Notes under the pieces: generated by a model | The model's input: the letters and a program-made list of their open reading frames with translations, nothing else | The model's database searches: none | What the model was told of the DNA's origin: nothing | Assembly (NCBI GenBank): GCA_012522045.1 | Contig: JAAYLC010000094.1 | Coordinates: forward strand, 1 to 32,104 | Length of the DNA stretch: 32,104 nucleotides | Source of the DNA: Bacteroidota bacterium | GTDB taxonomy: Bacteria > Bacteroidota > Bacteroidia > Flavobacteriales > Flavobacteriaceae | Direction: 5' to 3' | In this document: one piece after another, positions 409 to 11,379 of the stretch | How the letters are laid out: each line of letters starts with the position of its first letter | Position numbering within the stretch: position 1 is the stretch's first letter | Program-made: the position numbers and the translations under genes

Positions 409-1413
409 TCAATAAAGACGACCTGCTGACTTGAAACGCTGAGAAATACGTTCTTTGAAATCCTGTGGAGAAATTACCTTGACTTGTTCTCCAAAAGAAA
501 GAATCAATCTTTCCAACTCAAAATTTGGAATGACTTTGATTCTAACTTCAAGACCAGTTGGGTCATTCTTGTGCTTTTGACTTGGATGAATAGGCTTTGT
601 AATGACATAGGGAGCAACTTCAGGAGAAAACTTCAAGATGATTTCCTGTAAGATTCCACTTTCGGGGCGGGTAACACCAACCAAATCGAAAAAGTAATCT
701 TCCCAATCGGTTTGGGACGGGCTGTATTTTTGGGCAGTTTCAGACAATGATTCAATCCGATCCAAAGCAAGATTCCAATTCGGGACCTGATTATCAGAAT
801 TAAGCCCAAAAACAAACCACCGATTGTTGTATTGCTTTAAATAGTATGGATGAAAAGTGATTTCGTATGGTTCAGAACTTTTAAAATCTTTGTATTTGAC
901 AAGTAAAACCCGCTCATTAACTATAGCATTGAACAGTGGAGTTAAAAAATGAAGCCCTTTAAGGTCAATATTGCTCTCAAAGCTGATGATTTCACTTTTA
1001 CGCTCAATTAAGCCAAACTTCGATTCCAACATTGGAATCATCTCATTGACCCACTCAAACTGAGGTGTGCCAGAGAAACGAGAAAATATTTGAAGGGCTG
1101 ACTTTATTTGTTCGGCTTCCGAATCATTCAAAGGTTGGTTGCTGATTGAAAACGACAAATCTTCATATCGGTAATAAACCTTTCTACCATGACGGATTCT
1201 GCCAAGAGGGATAGACCAGCCTGCTTCACTTTCCATGAAACGGATGTCATCAAACAGTTGCCTTCTTTGTATTCCTTCGCTGTTTGGGTCAAAATCCATC
1301 AATGCTTTATTGCATTCTTCGAGCAGATCTTCCCAAAAATACATCCTGCCCGTGTTGCGAAAGCAACGGTCTAAGACCTGATAGCGGATAAGTGCATTTT
1401 TGTTGACAGACAT
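409..1413 (-). CDS. WYL-domain transcriptional regulator (BrxR/CapW-like layout)
   Basis: The 334-residue protein has the layout of WYL regulators that control phage defence loci. An N-terminal winged helix covers about residues 5-85, with RRQLFDDIRFMESEAG as its recognition part. A WYL domain covers about 155-230, with HPYYLKQYNNRWFVFG at 188-203 (YYL at the WYL position). A C-terminal WCX dimerisation region covers about 255-325. Such proteins bind a palindrome as dimers, and the WYL pocket senses a nucleic acid or nucleotide ligand. The gene is divergent from the retron. Its own promoter is TTG (1478-1480, minus), 19 bases, TATCTTTG (1451-1458), and a palindrome at 1430-1448 covers the expected transcription start, so autorepression is likely. 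Whether it represses or activates the retron cannot be read from sequence. Confidence 0.87.
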   Translation of the reverse strand: MSVNKNALIRYQVLDRCFRNTGRMYFWEDLLEECNKALMDFDPNSEGIQRRQLFDDIRFMESEAGWSIPLGRIRHGRKVYYRYEDLSFSISNQPLNDSEAEQIKSALQIFSRFSGTPQFEWVNEMIPMLESKFGLIERKSEIISFESNIDLKGLHFLTPLFNAIVNERVLLVKYKDFKSSEPYEITFHPYYLKQYNNRWFVFGLNSDNQVPNWNLALDRIESLSETAQKYSPSQTDWEDYFFDLVGVTRPESGILQEIILKFSPEVAPYVITKPIHPSQKHKNDPTGLEVRIKVIPNFELERLILSFGEQVKVISPQDFKERISQRFKSAGRLY

Positions 1414-1558: not shown

Positions 1559-1574
1559 AAGCACTATACTTTTG
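1547..1574 (+). promoter_or_regulatory. Promoter of the retron RNA
   Basis: TTG at 1547-1549, a 17-base spacer and TACTTTTG at 1567-1574 form a Bacteroidota promoter. The predicted start is near 1580, essentially the first base of the a1 arm of the msr-msd RNA, which supports both calls. A second possible pair, TTG at 1510-1512 with TATCTTTA at 1530-1537, would start transcription inside the operator and cannot be excluded. Confidence 0.65.
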
Positions 1575-1576
1575 CA

Positions 1577-1844
1577 GAAGTTCTTTGAAGCACTTGCCAC
1601 AAGATATTGATTCGTGGGTGCTGGTCTCAGATTTCGGTTTGAGACAATGATCGGCATCTTCTCCCGACCTCTGGTTGGGATGAATGTCACTTAGGCATTT
1701 TTAACAGCGGTTATTGATTTCAATATCAATAATATGAAGTTGTTATTGATGTAATTATTAGTGATGAATAGGTATTGATTTCAATTGTAATGATTGAAAT
1801 ATTCATACAAAAAGAGTATCCGGCAGGTGTTTTCAAAGTCCTTC
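1577..1844 (+). ncRNA. Retron msr-msd non-coding RNA
   Basis: The RNA is bounded by an a1/a2 inverted repeat. a1 at 1577-1598 (GAAG, CTTTGAA, CACTTGCC) pairs with a2 at 1822-1844 (GGCAGGTG, TTCAAAG, CTTC): 19 pairs with two small internal loops and one G-U. Inside a1 are two msr-type hairpins. One is GTCTCAGA/TTTGAGAC with loop TTTCGG (1624-1645). The other is TCCCGACC/GGTTGGGA with loop TCT (1662-1680). The 3' half is AT-rich with three imperfect repeats starting TATTGAT (1712, 1744, 1773) and hairpins at 1711-1732 and 1778-1800; this should be the msd template. The branching G is probably just after a1 (for example 1603), which is a guess. The reverse transcriptase ATG follows 13 bases after a2. 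Confidence 0.83.
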
Positions 1845-1856
1845 AAAACTTTAGAC

Positions 1857-3047
1857 ATGAAAATTGAACAGGCACATATCGACCAAATACGGAAGCAATT
1901 TGCAGAACTGCAAAGCAAAAAGGACTTAGTGAAACTATTAAGTGACGCTAAGAATATGCTTTATGGTGAGGAATGTAAGCCGGTTCAATTAAAAGCATTG
2001 ACCTATTACGCTAATCCTACCCTTTGCAAAAAGCGTTATCAGACTTTTACCATCAAGAAAAAGTCGGGTGCAGACAGAACCATCCATGCACCCGTGAAAG
2101 GGTTAAAATCTATCCTTCGCTCTCTAAACTTTGTGCTGCAATGTGTATATGAGCCGCATAAAGCAGCTACGGGTTTTGTATTGGATAAGTCAATCGTTGA
2201 CAATGCCCAAAAGCACGTGGAAAAACATTATGTTTTCAATTTAGACTTAAAAGATTTCTTTCACACTTTCGACCGTAACAGAGTGAAAATGGGCTTTATG
2301 TATGAGCCTTTTAACCTGAATGGAGACAAAGAACCTTTGGCTTTCCTTTTGGCAAGTCTTTGCACCCACCCTTTTGAAATTGACGGTGAAGTAAAAACGG
2401 TTCTTCCACAAGGCAGCCCTACATCTCCGACCTTAACCAACATTCTTTGCAAAAAGCTTGACCGAAGACTTACCGGACTTGCCAACCGATTTGGAGCAAC
2501 GTATACAAGGTACGCTGACGATATTACATTTTCGTCACCGCACAACATCTATACTGATGAAGCTTTTAACAATGAGCTAAAGCGAATAATTGAAGATGAC
2601 CAAAAACTGGTTATAAACCCGAAGAAAACACGTTTACAAAAAGCAGGGTATAGACAAGAAGCAACAGGCTTGATTGTAAACGACAAGGTAAATGTCCGCA
2701 GGAGATATGTGAAGCAAATCCGTATGTGGCTATACTATTGGGAAAAGTACGGCTATGAAAAAGCGGAACAGATTTTTAAACGGGATTACATTGCCGATAA
2801 AGGGCATGTAAAAAACATTAATGCCCATTTGGTGAATGTGCTTGATGGGAAATTGGAATTCCTAAAGATGGTGAAGGGTGCTGAGGATGGAACTTATAAG
2901 GGATTAAAGGAGAGGCTTGAAAAATTGACTGGATTGAAAGAAAAAAAGGATTATCAAAAAATTGACTTAGAAAGTGTAGTAAACGCTATCTTGAATAAAG
3001 GACTTGATGAGGGCATAAACCTTTACGATAGGTTCAAAAACAGCTAA
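1857..3047 (+). CDS. Retron reverse transcriptase
   Basis: The 396-residue RT uses its msr-msd RNA as primer and template to make a branched RNA-DNA (msDNA). Visible motifs are NAQKH (116-120, the retron NAxxH of region X), NLDLKDFF (128-135, motif A with the catalytic Asp), LPQGSPTSP (183-191), YADD (219-222, catalytic Asp pair) and ATGLIVN (269-275, a variant of the retron VTG of region Y). This set separates retron RTs from group II intron and DGR enzymes. I chose the ATG at 1857. The frame is open from a TTG at 1794, but that start would put coding sequence inside the a2 arm. About 85 C-terminal residues extend beyond the thumb and may bind the cognate RNA. The next gene starts 2 bases after the stop, so the two are co-transcribed. 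Confidence 0.93.
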   Translation: MKIEQAHIDQIRKQFAELQSKKDLVKLLSDAKNMLYGEECKPVQLKALTYYANPTLCKKRYQTFTIKKKSGADRTIHAPVKGLKSILRSLNFVLQCVYEPHKAATGFVLDKSIVDNAQKHVEKHYVFNLDLKDFFHTFDRNRVKMGFMYEPFNLNGDKEPLAFLLASLCTHPFEIDGEVKTVLPQGSPTSPTLTNILCKKLDRRLTGLANRFGATYTRYADDITFSSPHNIYTDEAFNNELKRIIEDDQKLVINPKKTRLQKAGYRQEATGLIVNDKVNVRRRYVKQIRMWLYYWEKYGYEKAEQIFKRDYIADKGHVKNINAHLVNVLDGKLEFLKMVKGAEDGTYKGLKERLEKLTGLKEKKDYQKIDLESVVNAILNKGLDEGINLYDRFKNS

Positions 3048-3049
3048 AA

Positions 3050-4057
3050 ATGAAGGATAAGGATAAACTTAAAAAACTTGTTCAAATCATTGGTGATCTT
3101 CTAAAAGTTGAAGGTAATGAATGGTTAATTGACGAAATATTAAAAACCATTGGTGAAACATCACCTGTTGAAGAAATAGCAAAACATTCTGTTATTCAAA
3201 ATATCCATGAATATTGTGTTGAGCAAAAAATTGAAAAACAAGCAACTGAGTTCTATAATTCATTCCCTATTCATGAAATAAGAGAACAGCTGATTCAAGA
3301 CTACAAAAAAATGGAGCATGAAAGGCGGAGAGATGACTTTGAGGGATTTTGTCTAAGCATGTTTCAGCAAATCGAAGCCGTTGTGAATTTTTTATTTGAA
3401 TCTGATTTGGTTAAAAGTAAACTACAAATTGAGAGAAAATCATCCGCATTCTTAGAGTGGGATTCAGAAAAAAGGGTTTGGACTCGAAACAGCAATCAAC
3501 GTTTAGTTCCCTTCTTACTAATGAAAGTAAATCCTGAAAAGGATCAAAATTCACCGAGATACAACCCAAATTCTAAAGGACCATTTTATGAAATGGATGA
3601 AAAAAGTGAAGATGCATATTTTGATAAAGATGGTAAACCAGTAATTGATTATAATCCAAGTAAGAAAAGTTGGGGATTTCTAAACAGGTTTCGTGCAGTA
3701 CTTTTCTATTACTACTTCAAAAGCGAACTGAAACAAATAGATTTTGATAAAATTTATAAACCAGGATACGACCTATATATAATGAGAAATCAAAATCATA
3801 GAGAGAGCAAACCTACAGACAATCAAAAGAAGATAATTGACACAATCGCAGGAAAGGAGGGAAAGTATTTTCTAAAGTTTTATGGCTTTTTAGAAGACTT
3901 CATTTCGCAAGTAGAACAATCCTTATATTCCCAAAACCTGATAAAAAGCAGTAGTAATCAAACAAACAAACCTAAACAGAAAAACAAATTTTCCAATACT
4001 CTTGGAGACGACCCTAAGCTAGCAAAACTCTTTGAACAATTAAAGAAAAAAGATTAG
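3050..4057 (+). CDS. Retron-linked partner/effector candidate, HEPN-like features, family not recognised
   Basis: The 335-residue protein is encoded 2 bases after the RT stop and is probably the retron partner or toxin. I do not recognise the family with certainty. It is charged and mostly helical. LSMFQQIEAVVNFLF (102-116) looks like a packed helix, and YIMRNQNHRES (243-253) holds an Arg-Asn followed by His, reminiscent of the HEPN ribonuclease motif (R-polar-x3-5-H) but one residue short at R-x3-H. A second core helix, FLKFYGFLEDFISQVE (274-289), follows, then a polar tail rich in Lys, Asn and Gln. No membrane segment, Walker motif or signal peptide is seen. Its stop codon overlaps operator 3. 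If it is HEPN-like it would cleave RNA during infection; this is inference. Confidence 0.72.
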   Translation: MKDKDKLKKLVQIIGDLLKVEGNEWLIDEILKTIGETSPVEEIAKHSVIQNIHEYCVEQKIEKQATEFYNSFPIHEIREQLIQDYKKMEHERRRDDFEGFCLSMFQQIEAVVNFLFESDLVKSKLQIERKSSAFLEWDSEKRVWTRNSNQRLVPFLLMKVNPEKDQNSPRYNPNSKGPFYEMDEKSEDAYFDKDGKPVIDYNPSKKSWGFLNRFRAVLFYYYFKSELKQIDFDKIYKPGYDLYIMRNQNHRESKPTDNQKKIIDTIAGKEGKYFLKFYGFLEDFISQVEQSLYSQNLIKSSSNQTNKPKQKNKFSNTLGDDPKLAKLFEQLKKKD

Positions 4058-4109: not shown

Positions 4110-6317
4110 ATGAAAATTTTTGAACATTTCCAACATATCAATCTCACCAACGACCAACGCCAGGCGTTGGAAAAGCTTCACGCTTTTTTAGAAAGCGATG
4201 AGCGGATATTTATTCTTCAGGGATATGCGGGGAGTGGTAAAACAACTTTATTAAAGGGTTTTGTCGAGTATTTGGAATCTCTAAAAAAGAAATATCAATT
4301 GATGGCACCAACAGGCAGAGCTGCAAAAGTCATCAATCAAAAAACAGGCTTTGAATCTACCACCATTCACAAAGGCATATACAGCTTTGAAGAGTTGCAG
4401 GAAATCAAACAAGGTGAAGATGAAAACGATGTTTCGTTTTTGTACCAATACAAAATCAGAAACAATCCGGAAGTTCATGATTCGGTTCTGATAGTGGATG
4501 AAGCGTCTATGGTCAGCGATATTTTGAGCCAAGGCGAGTTTTTCCGCTTTGGAAGTGGACATTTGTTGCGAGACCTTGTGACTTATGGAAGAATTCAAGA
4601 AGCTACCACAACCAGCAAAATCATTTTCATTGGTGACCCTGCACAGTTGACACCAATCGGGATGAATTTCTCTCCTGCCCTTGATCCACATTATCTAAGT
4701 GAGACTTACAAGGTTTCTATTTCACAAGCTGAAATGAAAGAAGTGAAACGTCAGGATGCCAATAATGGTATTTTGATTTCGGCCACTAAAATAAGGCAGT
4801 GCCTTACTTCTGGCTACTTCAATGATTTTGATTTGAGAGAAAATGGACGGGACATTTTCAATCCAGCTTATCAAGATTACTTAGAAACCTACAAGGCGCA
4901 ACAAGACCAAAAAATAATCATCTGCTACAAAAACAAAACAGCACTTGATTTAAACCAAGCTATCCGCAGAGAAAAATTTGGAGATGATTTACCCATACAA
5001 CCATCTGACACAGTTATCATAGGAGGAAACAATTACCGCTTAGGTATCATGAACGGTGAATTTGCGGTTGTTTCAGAATCAAGTCCACAGGTTGAAAGCA
5101 GAGATGTTAGTTTTTACATTGAAAAAGGAAAAACAAAAACTGTTAGATTAACTTGGAGAGGAATTAGCCTTGTTTTACCTGATGAAAACAATCAGCCCAA
5201 AACCATAAACGGATTTATTTTAGAAAACTATCTATACGGTGATGACTACTTAAAACCCGAAGAGCAAAGAGCCCTTTATGTGGATTTTAAAAACAGGCAT
5301 CCCAAACTTAAAAAGGGTACAGAGGAATTTAAGGAAGCCATTATCAACGATAAGTATTTCAATTGCATACTTTTGAAATACGGTTATGCAGTAACCTGCC
5401 ACAAAGCCCAGGGCGGTGAATGGTCAAATGCCTTTGTATTTTGGGACAGAGGAACGCAAGCCAACTTCAACTTTTATGAATCGGAACATAACCGCTCAGG
5501 TAAGACCAATTCAGAATTTTACCGTTGGGCATATACAGCGGTTACCAGAGCATCCAAGAAACTGTTTTGCATCAATCCACCGTATTTTTCATCCTTTTCA
5601 GGCATGAATTTTATTGACGTGAATGTTCAACAAGCCTTCAATGAGTTGACAGGACAATCAAATCCGACAACTGAAATCAATATCAATGAAGTTTTGCCGG
5701 AATTGGAAAAATTTGGTTTAGTTGATGCACCATTGACTATCCAAGATCATTTTATTCATAGGTGGTATAATCTCCGAAAACATTACATAGATATTGAAGC
5801 TTGGCAGAAAGTTGGGTATGAAATACGATATATCTTCAAAAGAGAAGCCCAAACAGCAGCATTCAAACATTGGGTTAATGGTCAGAATGTTTTTAAAAGC
5901 AATTTTCAAAAGTTACCTGCACAAACCAATTCTGATGAGTTATTTGAAACCATCACAAAAATACTAGAGTGTGCTACTCCGATTGTAGTAAACAGGAACA
6001 ACATTGAAGGTATTCTGACCCAAATTGAATTTGATGTAGCAATTGAAGAAGAGAAGCCTTTCTTGAAAAATCTATTCGATTTTATCAGTAAAGGTTTAAC
6101 AAAAGGTGAAATCATTTCCAACATTCAGCATCTCGAATACCGTGAAAGATATACCATAGATAATAATGGACGGTCTTGCATAATTGACTTTGAATATGAT
6201 AAAGCAGGCTTTTTTGGTCGAGTGCTTCCATTAGAAAAGAAATGTGACTGCCCCGAAATTCTAAGCAGAATCAAATCCATTGTAAAAAACCTAAAAGAAA
6301 CTGATTATGTCATTTAA
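4110..6317 (+). CDS. RecD/Pif1-like SF1B DNA helicase with unknown C-terminal region
   Basis: The 735-residue protein has the SF1B helicase motifs: GYAGSGKTT (38-46, Walker A), APTGRAAKVI (66-75, motif Ia), IVDEAS (128-133, Walker B, DEAS), IFIGDPAQLTPIG (172-184, motif III), VTCHKAQGG (428-436, UvrD_C_2 motif V) and AYTAVTRASKKL (474-485, motif VI). These predict ATP-driven 5'-3' unwinding of DNA. About 240 residues after the helicase core match no domain I recognise and may bind the partner or substrate. No nuclease motif is seen. I use the ATG at 4110 because the upstream TTG (4089) lies inside the putative -7 element. The last 11 bases overlap the next gene, suggesting translational coupling and a two-protein complex. 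Confidence 0.88.
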   Translation: MKIFEHFQHINLTNDQRQALEKLHAFLESDERIFILQGYAGSGKTTLLKGFVEYLESLKKKYQLMAPTGRAAKVINQKTGFESTTIHKGIYSFEELQEIKQGEDENDVSFLYQYKIRNNPEVHDSVLIVDEASMVSDILSQGEFFRFGSGHLLRDLVTYGRIQEATTTSKIIFIGDPAQLTPIGMNFSPALDPHYLSETYKVSISQAEMKEVKRQDANNGILISATKIRQCLTSGYFNDFDLRENGRDIFNPAYQDYLETYKAQQDQKIIICYKNKTALDLNQAIRREKFGDDLPIQPSDTVIIGGNNYRLGIMNGEFAVVSESSPQVESRDVSFYIEKGKTKTVRLTWRGISLVLPDENNQPKTINGFILENYLYGDDYLKPEEQRALYVDFKNRHPKLKKGTEEFKEAIINDKYFNCILLKYGYAVTCHKAQGGEWSNAFVFWDRGTQANFNFYESEHNRSGKTNSEFYRWAYTAVTRASKKLFCINPPYFSSFSGMNFIDVNVQQAFNELTGQSNPTTEININEVLPELEKFGLVDAPLTIQDHFIHRWYNLRKHYIDIEAWQKVGYEIRYIFKREAQTAAFKHWVNGQNVFKSNFQKLPAQTNSDELFETITKILECATPIVVNRNNIEGILTQIEFDVAIEEEKPFLKNLFDFISKGLTKGEIISNIQHLEYRERYTIDNNGRSCIIDFEYDKAGFFGRVLPLEKKCDCPEILSRIKSIVKNLKETDYVI

Positions 6318-7818
6318 AGAAATCAAAGAACTTAGACAAACAGGTAAACTTGAAGAAGCTTTGCAAAAGGCAAATCAGGCTTTGGAAACAGAACCCGAAA
6401 ATATTTGGAATAAACGGGCTGCCGCATGGGTGTATTATGAATATCTCAAAAAAAATGCTCAGCCAGAATCATTTATAGCCTTTAAGGAAAATCTCATAAA
6501 GATTAAAAATCTGCAATTACCAGAAGATGAGAAAATGGTGTTTGACAATTGTGCATGGCAAATTGGTAGTTTAGTTTTTGCATTACAGAATACGGAGCAT
6601 GTTGATTATGGCAAAATCAATGAGTTATTTGAAATTATCAGAGACTTTAATTTCACCAAGCCATCTGAGGCGTATTCTTTTATTTACAAAGCCTTTCACA
6701 AAGGCTATCAAAACTGGTCAAACTATCTAACTTTTGCCGACTGGTGGAATTTTGATAATCTTCGTTCCGAAGACTATTTAAAAGAGGAGTTCAAAGGCAA
6801 AAAGATGATGTCTATTGCTGAACAAGCATACATTGCTTATTCCAAGAAGCTTTTGGAAGGAGAAGCTTTAGATCCTTTTGGACAGCAAAGAGTCATTGAC
6901 AAGGAAAAGATCCAATCATTCTTGCCAAAACTGGACTCTTTGATAGATAAACATCCTGACTATCAATATCCGCCCTATTTCAAGGCTAAGCTCCTTTTGG
7001 CATCAGGTAGTGATGAAAATGTTCTATCTGCATTTATACCTTTTGCCAAACAAAAAAGAAATGACTTTTGGGTGTGGGAACTGATGGCAGAAATATTTTC
7101 AGAAGATAAAGAAATTCAGTTTGCATGCTATTGTAAAGCCTTGAGCCTAAAAACCCCCGAAGACTTTTTAGTTAAGTTAAGACGGACTTTTTCTGAAATG
7201 CTCATTGAAAAGAAAATGTACAATGAAGCCAAAACAGAAATACAGAAAGTTATAGCCACAAGAGAGAAACACGAATGGAAATTGCCCAACCAAATAGTGC
7301 AATGGACAGAACAAGAGTGGTATAAATCTGCCACAGCTAAAAAGGACAACAACGATTTATATTCAAAACACTTCAAGCAAGCAGAGGAAATATTGTTTCA
7401 GGACATACCGGAAGAACTCATTGTAGTTGAGTTTGTAAACGAAAACAAGAATATGCTGAATTTTGTGAAGAGTAAGAGTAAATTTGGATTTTTCAATTAC
7501 TCGGGCTATTTGACGAAACCACAAATTGGCGACCTTTTAAAAGTACGTTTTAATGGAGAAGGACAAGGTGGTTTTTATAAAATCCTGACAGCAAAAAAAG
7601 CCGACTCTAATGAAAGAACTAATGCAGTGAAAAATTTTGAAGGAACAATAAAGGTGGTTTCTCCACAGAACTTTGGTTTTATAGAAGACATATTTATTGA
7701 ACCTAGAATTATAGAAAGGAGTAAGCTAAATAACGGTCAGCAGGTAAAGGGAAGAGCAATACTATCATTCAATAAAAAGAAAAATGAATGGGGATGGAAA
7801 GCAATAGAAATCAGATAG
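6307..7818 (+). CDS. TPR protein with C-terminal cold-shock/OB domains, helicase partner
   Basis: The N-terminus (LRQTGKLEEALQKANQALET, residues 9-28) is a classical TPR helix pair, and further helical repeats probably continue to about residue 370. The C-terminal part carries two beta-rich segments: KFGFFNYSGYLTKPQIGDLLKV, from about 385, and EGTIKVVSPQNFGFIEDIF, from 445. The latter continues to KGRAILSF and KKNEWGWKA and resembles a cold-shock or S1-type OB fold that binds single-stranded nucleic acid. Because it overlaps the helicase gene by 11 bases it is likely its partner, perhaps loading it on RNA or ssDNA. Its role in defence is inferred only from context. No transmembrane segment or catalytic motif is visible. 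It is the last gene of the island. Confidence 0.78.
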   Translation: MSFKEIKELRQTGKLEEALQKANQALETEPENIWNKRAAAWVYYEYLKKNAQPESFIAFKENLIKIKNLQLPEDEKMVFDNCAWQIGSLVFALQNTEHVDYGKINELFEIIRDFNFTKPSEAYSFIYKAFHKGYQNWSNYLTFADWWNFDNLRSEDYLKEEFKGKKMMSIAEQAYIAYSKKLLEGEALDPFGQQRVIDKEKIQSFLPKLDSLIDKHPDYQYPPYFKAKLLLASGSDENVLSAFIPFAKQKRNDFWVWELMAEIFSEDKEIQFACYCKALSLKTPEDFLVKLRRTFSEMLIEKKMYNEAKTEIQKVIATREKHEWKLPNQIVQWTEQEWYKSATAKKDNNDLYSKHFKQAEEILFQDIPEELIVVEFVNENKNMLNFVKSKSKFGFFNYSGYLTKPQIGDLLKVRFNGEGQGGFYKILTAKKADSNERTNAVKNFEGTIKVVSPQNFGFIEDIFIEPRIIERSKLNNGQQVKGRAILSFNKKKNEWGWKAIEIR

Positions 7819-11167: not shown

Positions 11168-11179
11168 ATAATAATTAAC

Positions 11180-11368
11180 ACTTTTGGCAGGTCTCCTGGC
11201 TTGTCGATGCTACCTTCCCATTCTATTTTAGAACAGTGGTTTGAAGAATTGCAATCCGAAAAATGTTTTCGGCCGACTTACAGTTGCGGGAACAGCATAG
11301 GAATATTCACCTATTTCCCTTTTAAGAACCACAACTTATACTTGTTGTTAAGGGTTCACCAATCGTAT
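11180..11368 (-). ncRNA. Cobalamin riboswitch
   Basis: On the minus strand this carries the AdoCbl/B12 riboswitch core in order: GGTGAACCC, AAGGGAA, GGTGAATATTCCTATGC, TGTTCCCGCAACTGTAAG, CCACTGT, GGGAAGG, GACAAGCC and the exact B12 box GCCAGGAGACCTGCC (11186-11200). It lies between the promoter and btuB, so high cobalamin would switch off btuB-btuG. Class II-type switches also bind this way; the exact ligand form cannot be told. Confidence 0.96.
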
Positions 11369-11371
11369 TTG

Positions 11372-11379
11372 CAAAGATA
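11372..11379 (-). promoter_or_regulatory. -7 element of the riboswitch-btuB-btuG transcript
   Basis: TATCTTTG on the minus strand matches TAnnTTTG and lies directly upstream of the riboswitch aptamer. No clear TTG is seen at the -33 distance. Confidence 0.6.

Follow-up and report, generated by a model that had tools for sequence, protein, structure and literature searches.

Retrons are bacterial anti-phage systems that copy a short RNA into DNA. It is an open question how the RT-msDNA particles of retrons can recognise and hold back toxins of such different kinds. In the type IX retron (Retron-Kva2), a HEPN RNase effector is held in the RT-msDNA particle; the system has an extra winged-helix protein, and its HEPN protein lacks the canonical motif, with H64 and R122 lying far apart (PMC13405049). 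HEPN RNases typically carry an Rx4-6H motif, with a polar residue after the arginine and an acidic residue upstream (PMC3710099). BrxR-type WYL repressors have inverted repeats at their own promoter and at the promoter of the defence system (PMC9122601).

We analysed a 32,104-nucleotide stretch of Bacteroidota DNA (the window). Judged from its sequence, the locus is a genuine retron, with an msr-msd RNA encoded at 1580–1844, 5' of a retron RT. In our main reading, which we hold with a probability of roughly 0.7, it is a complete, WYL-controlled retron whose RT belongs to a clade spread across Bacteroidota and close to types XI and XII, and its msDNA particle restrains a HEPN RNase through the RT tail. 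A sequence-only reading had drawn attention to the RNA; most of the interest is found beyond its coordinates, in the regulator/operator pair, the partner protein and an exchange of output cassettes, none of which that reading had described. The genes central to this exchange were as follows.

1857–3047, plus strand: retron RT of 396 aa (PF00078, 1.1e-17; retron RT models to 1e-100; YADD, NAQKH)
2880–3044, plus strand: variable RT tail, residues 342–396, which changes with output type
3050–4057, plus strand: HEPN-like partner protein of 335 aa (R246-N-Q-N-H250 encoded at 3785–3799)

Using the RT (1857–3047) as query, we gathered relatives from whole genomes, GTDB contigs and viral contigs. The best 80 loci were kept from the GTDB contigs, nearly all of them labelled Bacteroidota, and the locus counts given below rest on the matches listed. 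The single RT sequence had no matches among the viral contigs, and an RT alignment was needed to find relatives. Near-identical retrons occurred in MAGs labelled Candidatus Atribacteria and Bacillota (L034, L038); these are probably Bacteroidota contigs that were wrongly binned, or else cases of transfer.

Close relatives with the same WYL regulator, operator, RNA and RT body had a histidine-kinase/inactive-receiver cassette in place of the HEPN gene. The first gene of this cassette encodes a PF22561 HisKin-conflict protein, either separate or fused to the RT, and is followed by genes for a ~210-aa protein that belongs to no Pfam family and for a protein of ~570–600 aa with inactive-receiver and receiver domains. 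RT identity to the window RT was 84% for the kinase-type locus L038 and 82% for L012, the contig of which ends after the kinase gene. Five loci (L050, L052, L053, L055, L074) encoded an RT-histidine-kinase fusion, with the same ncRNA upstream and a receiver-domain gene downstream. An RT tree of 78 rows (a quick tree, no bootstrap) needed at least 21 output changes, and its well-supported branches alone force 6–7 output changes per group.

The exchange was mirrored in the RT itself. Among the 12 closest loci listed, RT body identity was 78% within and 79% between output types, whereas the last ~55 residues were 49% identical within and 24% between them. A contrast so large arose only under the true labelling among 792, in a comparison that ignores the tree. 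Because the RT tail travels with the output, it is the best candidate for an element that docks the output. We give about even odds to a two-part design of the clade. The WYL repressor, operator, ncRNA and RT body would form a constant sensor half, and the C-terminal tail of the RT would form, with either the HEPN RNase or the histidine-kinase/inactive-receiver cassette, an output half that can be exchanged. The same kind of msDNA sensor could then drive either RNA cleavage or a phosphorelay-like switch, and the RT tail would serve as docking plug.

The partner gene begins 2 bases after the RT stop, and a partner gene was always downstream of the RT in the loci listed. As a single sequence the partner had no meaningful match in Pfam, PADLOC, NCBIfam or PDB sequences, and a plasmid search with it found nothing. 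The 39-member partner family had invariant M88, E109, N113, R246 and H250 and a nearly invariant N247. Its motif is R-N-x2-3-H, and the R-N-x2-H of the window clade is one residue shorter than the classical Rx4-6H. Because the invariant R, H and Glu and the near-invariant N fit the HEPN pattern, the partner is probably a HEPN RNase. The structural model (pLDDT 40 when folded alone, 76.6 with the family alignment) was all-helical and confident in its core. A Foldseek search of this model against PDB and viral structures gave no significant fold match, with a HEPN toxin appearing only at E = 9.8. Profile matches to designed helical repeats in PDB were judged artefacts of helical composition.

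The locus could also be a true retron with a partner that is not an RNase, R-N-x-x-H then belonging to another all-helical domain with some other output for defence. We regard this as unlikely, although the absent fold match, the lack of any library match for the window protein itself and the shortened motif all speak in its favour, because the invariant R, H and Glu and the near-invariant polar residue after R reproduce the published HEPN pattern (PMC3710099) and other family members weakly match HEPN families (DUF4145 in four members, best 2.6e-5; HEPN_Apea in two). In one locus, L043, the HEPN partner was only 144 aa long and was followed by a split TOTE helicase; the effector there looks broken, with RT and RNA intact.

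Downstream of the probable HEPN RNase gene the window has a second candidate module.

4110–7818, plus strand: TOTE/PDC-M16A-B gene pair (a helicase with a TBP-TOTE domain; a TPR protein with S1/CSD-TOTE domains)

This pair is possibly an accessory or separate defence module. In 10 of the 40 loci listed it came immediately after the HEPN gene, and in 9 of the 31 kinase or fusion loci listed it lay further downstream. Since the same pair often follows either cassette, the middle cassette looks replaced between conserved flanks. These counts also favour a reading in which the effector proper, or an indispensable part of the retron, is the TOTE/PDC-M16 pair and the HEPN-like protein is an adaptor; however, the pair was absent from most loci listed and has its own catalogue entry as a candidate system, PDC-M16, and we consider such a role quite unlikely. 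In L035 (7293–8288), a YhcG/DUF1016 nuclease gene separated the HEPN partner from the TOTE pair. The window also contains an ordinary cobalamin riboswitch (RF00174, 88.5 bits, 11169–11378, minus strand).

The RT was compared with known models and structures. The top PADLOC retron models, matching over the RT domain only, were RT-Protease_XI (1e-100), RT-TIR_XII (5e-95) and RT-Toprim_I-C, and the closest solved structures were those of retron RTs. Membership among group II intron RTs or Drt2 was rejected, as retron models score far above both. The motifs YADD and NAxxH (as NAQKH) were present. The third retron motif, VTG, was ATG in this RT and its nearest relatives; VTG was found in 67 of the 78 aligned relatives listed and was missing from ten rows besides this RT. 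The locus has an RT of the retron clade with YADD and NAxxH, an msr-msd RNA bounded by a1/a2, msr stem-loops and an invariant G by a1; of the retron features examined, it does not plainly show the exact VTG letters or a clearly structured msd.

The ATG in place of VTG, the variable, A+T-rich msd and the fact that msDNA is only predicted leave a small chance that the gene is some other defence RT (DRT-like) with a structured RNA and a different DNA product. We think this very improbable, given that NAxxH is present, that retron models far outscore the Drt2 and group II models, and that there is covariation in the a1/a2 geometry, the boundary of which carries an invariant G. The parts of the retron RNA were the following.

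1580–1598, plus strand: a1 arm at the 5' end of the ncRNA, GTTCTTTGAAGCACTTGCC, with cognate pairing to a2 across 22 loci
1603–1610, plus strand: inner extension of the a1/a2 stem, then invariant TTGA (alignment A3)
1616–1659, plus strand: msr stem-loop 1, which includes an inner hairpin that varies (4 of its 9 pairs changed on both sides; 98% of cells paired)
1662–1680, plus strand: msr stem-loop 2 (both sides changed in 6 of its 7 pairs)
1682–1687, plus strand: conserved GAATGT 3' of the msr stems (alignment A3)
1688–1804, plus strand: msd, variable and A+T-rich, the predicted msDNA template; sequence not conserved
1805–1820, plus strand: conserved ATACAAAAAGAGTATC adjoining a2, from the alignment; its 3' part pairs with 1603–1608
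1822–1844, plus strand: a2 arm, GGCAGGTGTTTTCAAAG at 1822–1838 with weaker pairing on to ~1844

The minimum-free-energy fold of 1570–1857 (−91.8 kcal/mol, z = −5.5) was closed by the a1/a2 stem, and none of 200 dinucleotide shuffles folded as well. The sequence-only reading had set the arms at 1577–1598 and 1822–1844, with 19 paired positions, two internal loops and a promoter that started the RNA at 1577. We found the arms, their pairing and the promoter in place; the computed duplex had ~17 pairs and one bulge, and the RNA 5' end is best put at ~1580, 3 bases inside the earlier position. The two hairpins described 3' of the 5' arm were real (1616–1659 and 1662–1680) and both covaried, and the spacing given from RNA to RT agrees with the RT ATG at 1857, 12 bases after 1844. 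With promoter, RNA, RT and a partner gene 2 bases downstream all intact, the suggestion that the system is likely complete was supported as well.

Inward of the arms the stem continued, with GATATT (1603–1608) pairing with GAGTATC (1814–1820). G1609, which lies in the invariant TTGA next to a1, is probably the branching or priming G, and the conserved ATACAAAAAGAGTATC at 1805–1820 is the predicted start of reverse transcription. The msd formed hairpins in most loci and was only moderately structured, with z from about −5 to 0 by locus and −2.6 here.

Alignment with the regions upstream of close RT homologues revealed the same RNA in the same position, in the order GTTCTTTGAAAnACCTGCC, invariant TTGA, stem-loop 1, stem-loop 2, GAATGT, variable A+T-rich msd, ATACAAAnAGAATATC and a2. 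Covariation of the arms among homologues, on which the sequence-only reading had staked its claim, was borne out: over 22 loci the a1/a2 duplex averaged −25.0 kcal/mol for cognate arms, −17.1 for non-cognate arms and −14.5 for clearly different partners. The permutation value for this cognate preference was 1e-4 (22 loci), in a permutation that ignores relatedness. In the divergent loci L046, L052, L056, L057, L060 and L061, each a1 paired best with its own a2 or an equal one, and the changes were compensatory on both sides, as in CCTGCTGC/GCAGCAGG and AACCCAAAC/GTTTGGGTT. The two msr stems kept 93% of their pairs and had double compensatory changes in 10 of 16. Their covariation score was 0.461, compared with 0.205 in shuffles, of which 0 of 500 reached it; sliding gave no more than 0.184. 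Because the same RNA occupies the same position upstream of related RTs, the arms and fold are not a product of chance; the notion that intergenic DNA happened to form the inverted repeat and hairpins, which has nothing behind it beyond their discovery by eye, is refuted by the covariation and countered by the z of −5.5.

Rfam 15 had no retron family matching this RNA, either at gathering thresholds or at E <= 5, which fits the remark that retron RNAs of Bacteroidota are rarely annotated. A covariance model built from the relatives, by contrast, detected the RNA immediately 5' of the RT in 38 of the 94 sources listed (E < 0.01), half of them outside the training set; untrained loci matched at E <= 1.1e-5 include L037, L050, L053, L055, L058, L014, L065, L074 and L097. 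Fifty-nine related genomes yielded no match, which suggests a patchy, probably horizontal distribution. Two loci had unusual RNAs. L039 (~4654–5000) contained a tandem second copy of the msr stem region, making the RNA ~70 bases longer with a1/a2 intact, and L037 (4096–5000) had ~600 extra bases with a 187-aa ORF between msr and RT, which looks like an insertion in the ncRNA.

Upstream of the RNA we identified a promoter, a divergent regulator gene and two predicted operators.

409–1413, minus strand: WYL-domain regulator, divergent from the retron (PF13280 WYL and PF25583 WCX)
1430–1446, strand not assigned: predicted operator 1, GTGCAGGTGAAATGCAC, a GTGCAN7TGCAC site just upstream of the WYL gene
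1540–1556, strand not assigned: predicted operator 2, GTGCAGATTGAGTGCAC, a GTGCAN7TGCAC site at the retron promoter
1567–1574, plus strand: Bacteroidetes-type −7 box, TACTTTTG, recognised by sequence

The position of the −7 box places the RNA 5' end at ~1580. An exact TAnnTTTG lay no more than 22 bases from the RNA start in 15 of the 38 loci listed, with variants in the others. A WYL gene was near the retron in 64 of the 94 related loci listed, mostly divergent in the closest ones. GTGCAN7TGCAC occurred exactly twice in the whole 2.69-Mb assembly, both times between wyl and the retron. Most close relatives had a like palindrome 38–40 bases before GTTCTTTGA, just upstream of the −7 box, whatever the effector. 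By analogy with BrxR (PMC9122601), the WYL protein likely represses its own promoter and the retron promoter through the predicted operators.

Under the main reading, the WYL repressor would hold down its own gene and the retron promoter through the two palindromic operators. Once transcribed, the ncRNA would fold by a1/a2 pairing, and the RT would use as primer the 2'-OH of a G located immediately within the stem (G1609 is the probable one) and copy the msd from the conserved site next to a2 into msDNA. The partner, which is probably a HEPN RNase in dimeric form, would then be held by the RT-msDNA particle through the C-terminal tail of the RT. A phage trigger that acts on this particle may release the RNase, so that cellular RNA is cleaved and infection aborted. 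In relatives, the same sensor half would carry the histidine-kinase/inactive-receiver output instead.

The window retron and L038 or L012 are alike in more than 80% of the RT and have almost the same RNA, but their outputs are unrelated. With natural pairs of this kind, swaps can directly test the RT tail as docking element and the way in which sensing is divided from killing, and cassette replacement in close relatives could reveal how a single sensor comes to be linked to different outputs in retrons. The clade further provides an RNA family that is well supported and missing from Rfam 15, together with a predicted retron repressor and its predicted operator, and it adds retrons from Bacteroidota, where few are characterised.

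We compared the locus with the closest described systems. In the literature searched, which excluded the main retron surveys, we found neither this RNA nor any mention of HEPN partners in the clade or of retrons with histidine kinases; their novelty is provisional for that reason. Like type IX, this is a retron with a HEPN effector, here a predicted HEPN RNase; it differs in its linear motif, in a partner that follows the RT and in having no winged-helix gene. Membership of type IX was rejected because the operon has no winged-helix gene with a small HEPN and the type IX RT model scored 2.2e-45, against 1e-100 for XI. Types XI (RT-protease) and XII (RT-TIR) have the closest RT models over the RT domain (E of 1e-100 and 5e-95), but here the partner is a separate HEPN-like protein, or histidine-kinase domains in relatives, and membership was rejected because the RT, at 396 aa, has neither a protease nor a TIR domain fused to it. 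The partner shares with the HEPN superfamily (DUF4145, ApeA and others) the invariant R-polar-x-H and upstream acidic residue, with weak matches in some members; most members, including this one, match no named HEPN family, and the spacing in the window clade is R-N-x2-H. As with BrxR, a WYL regulator stands beside a defence system with inverted repeats, predicted here, at both promoters; the operator sequence differs, and a consistent link to one retron clade was not found in the parts of PMC9122601 searched. No paper in the literature searched links histidine kinases or inactive receivers (PF22561/PF22563) to retrons. In close relatives of the window retron, PF22561 HisKin-conflict and PF22563 iREC domains make up the alternative output cassette; the retron RT that they stand behind, or to which they are fused, has the same ncRNA.
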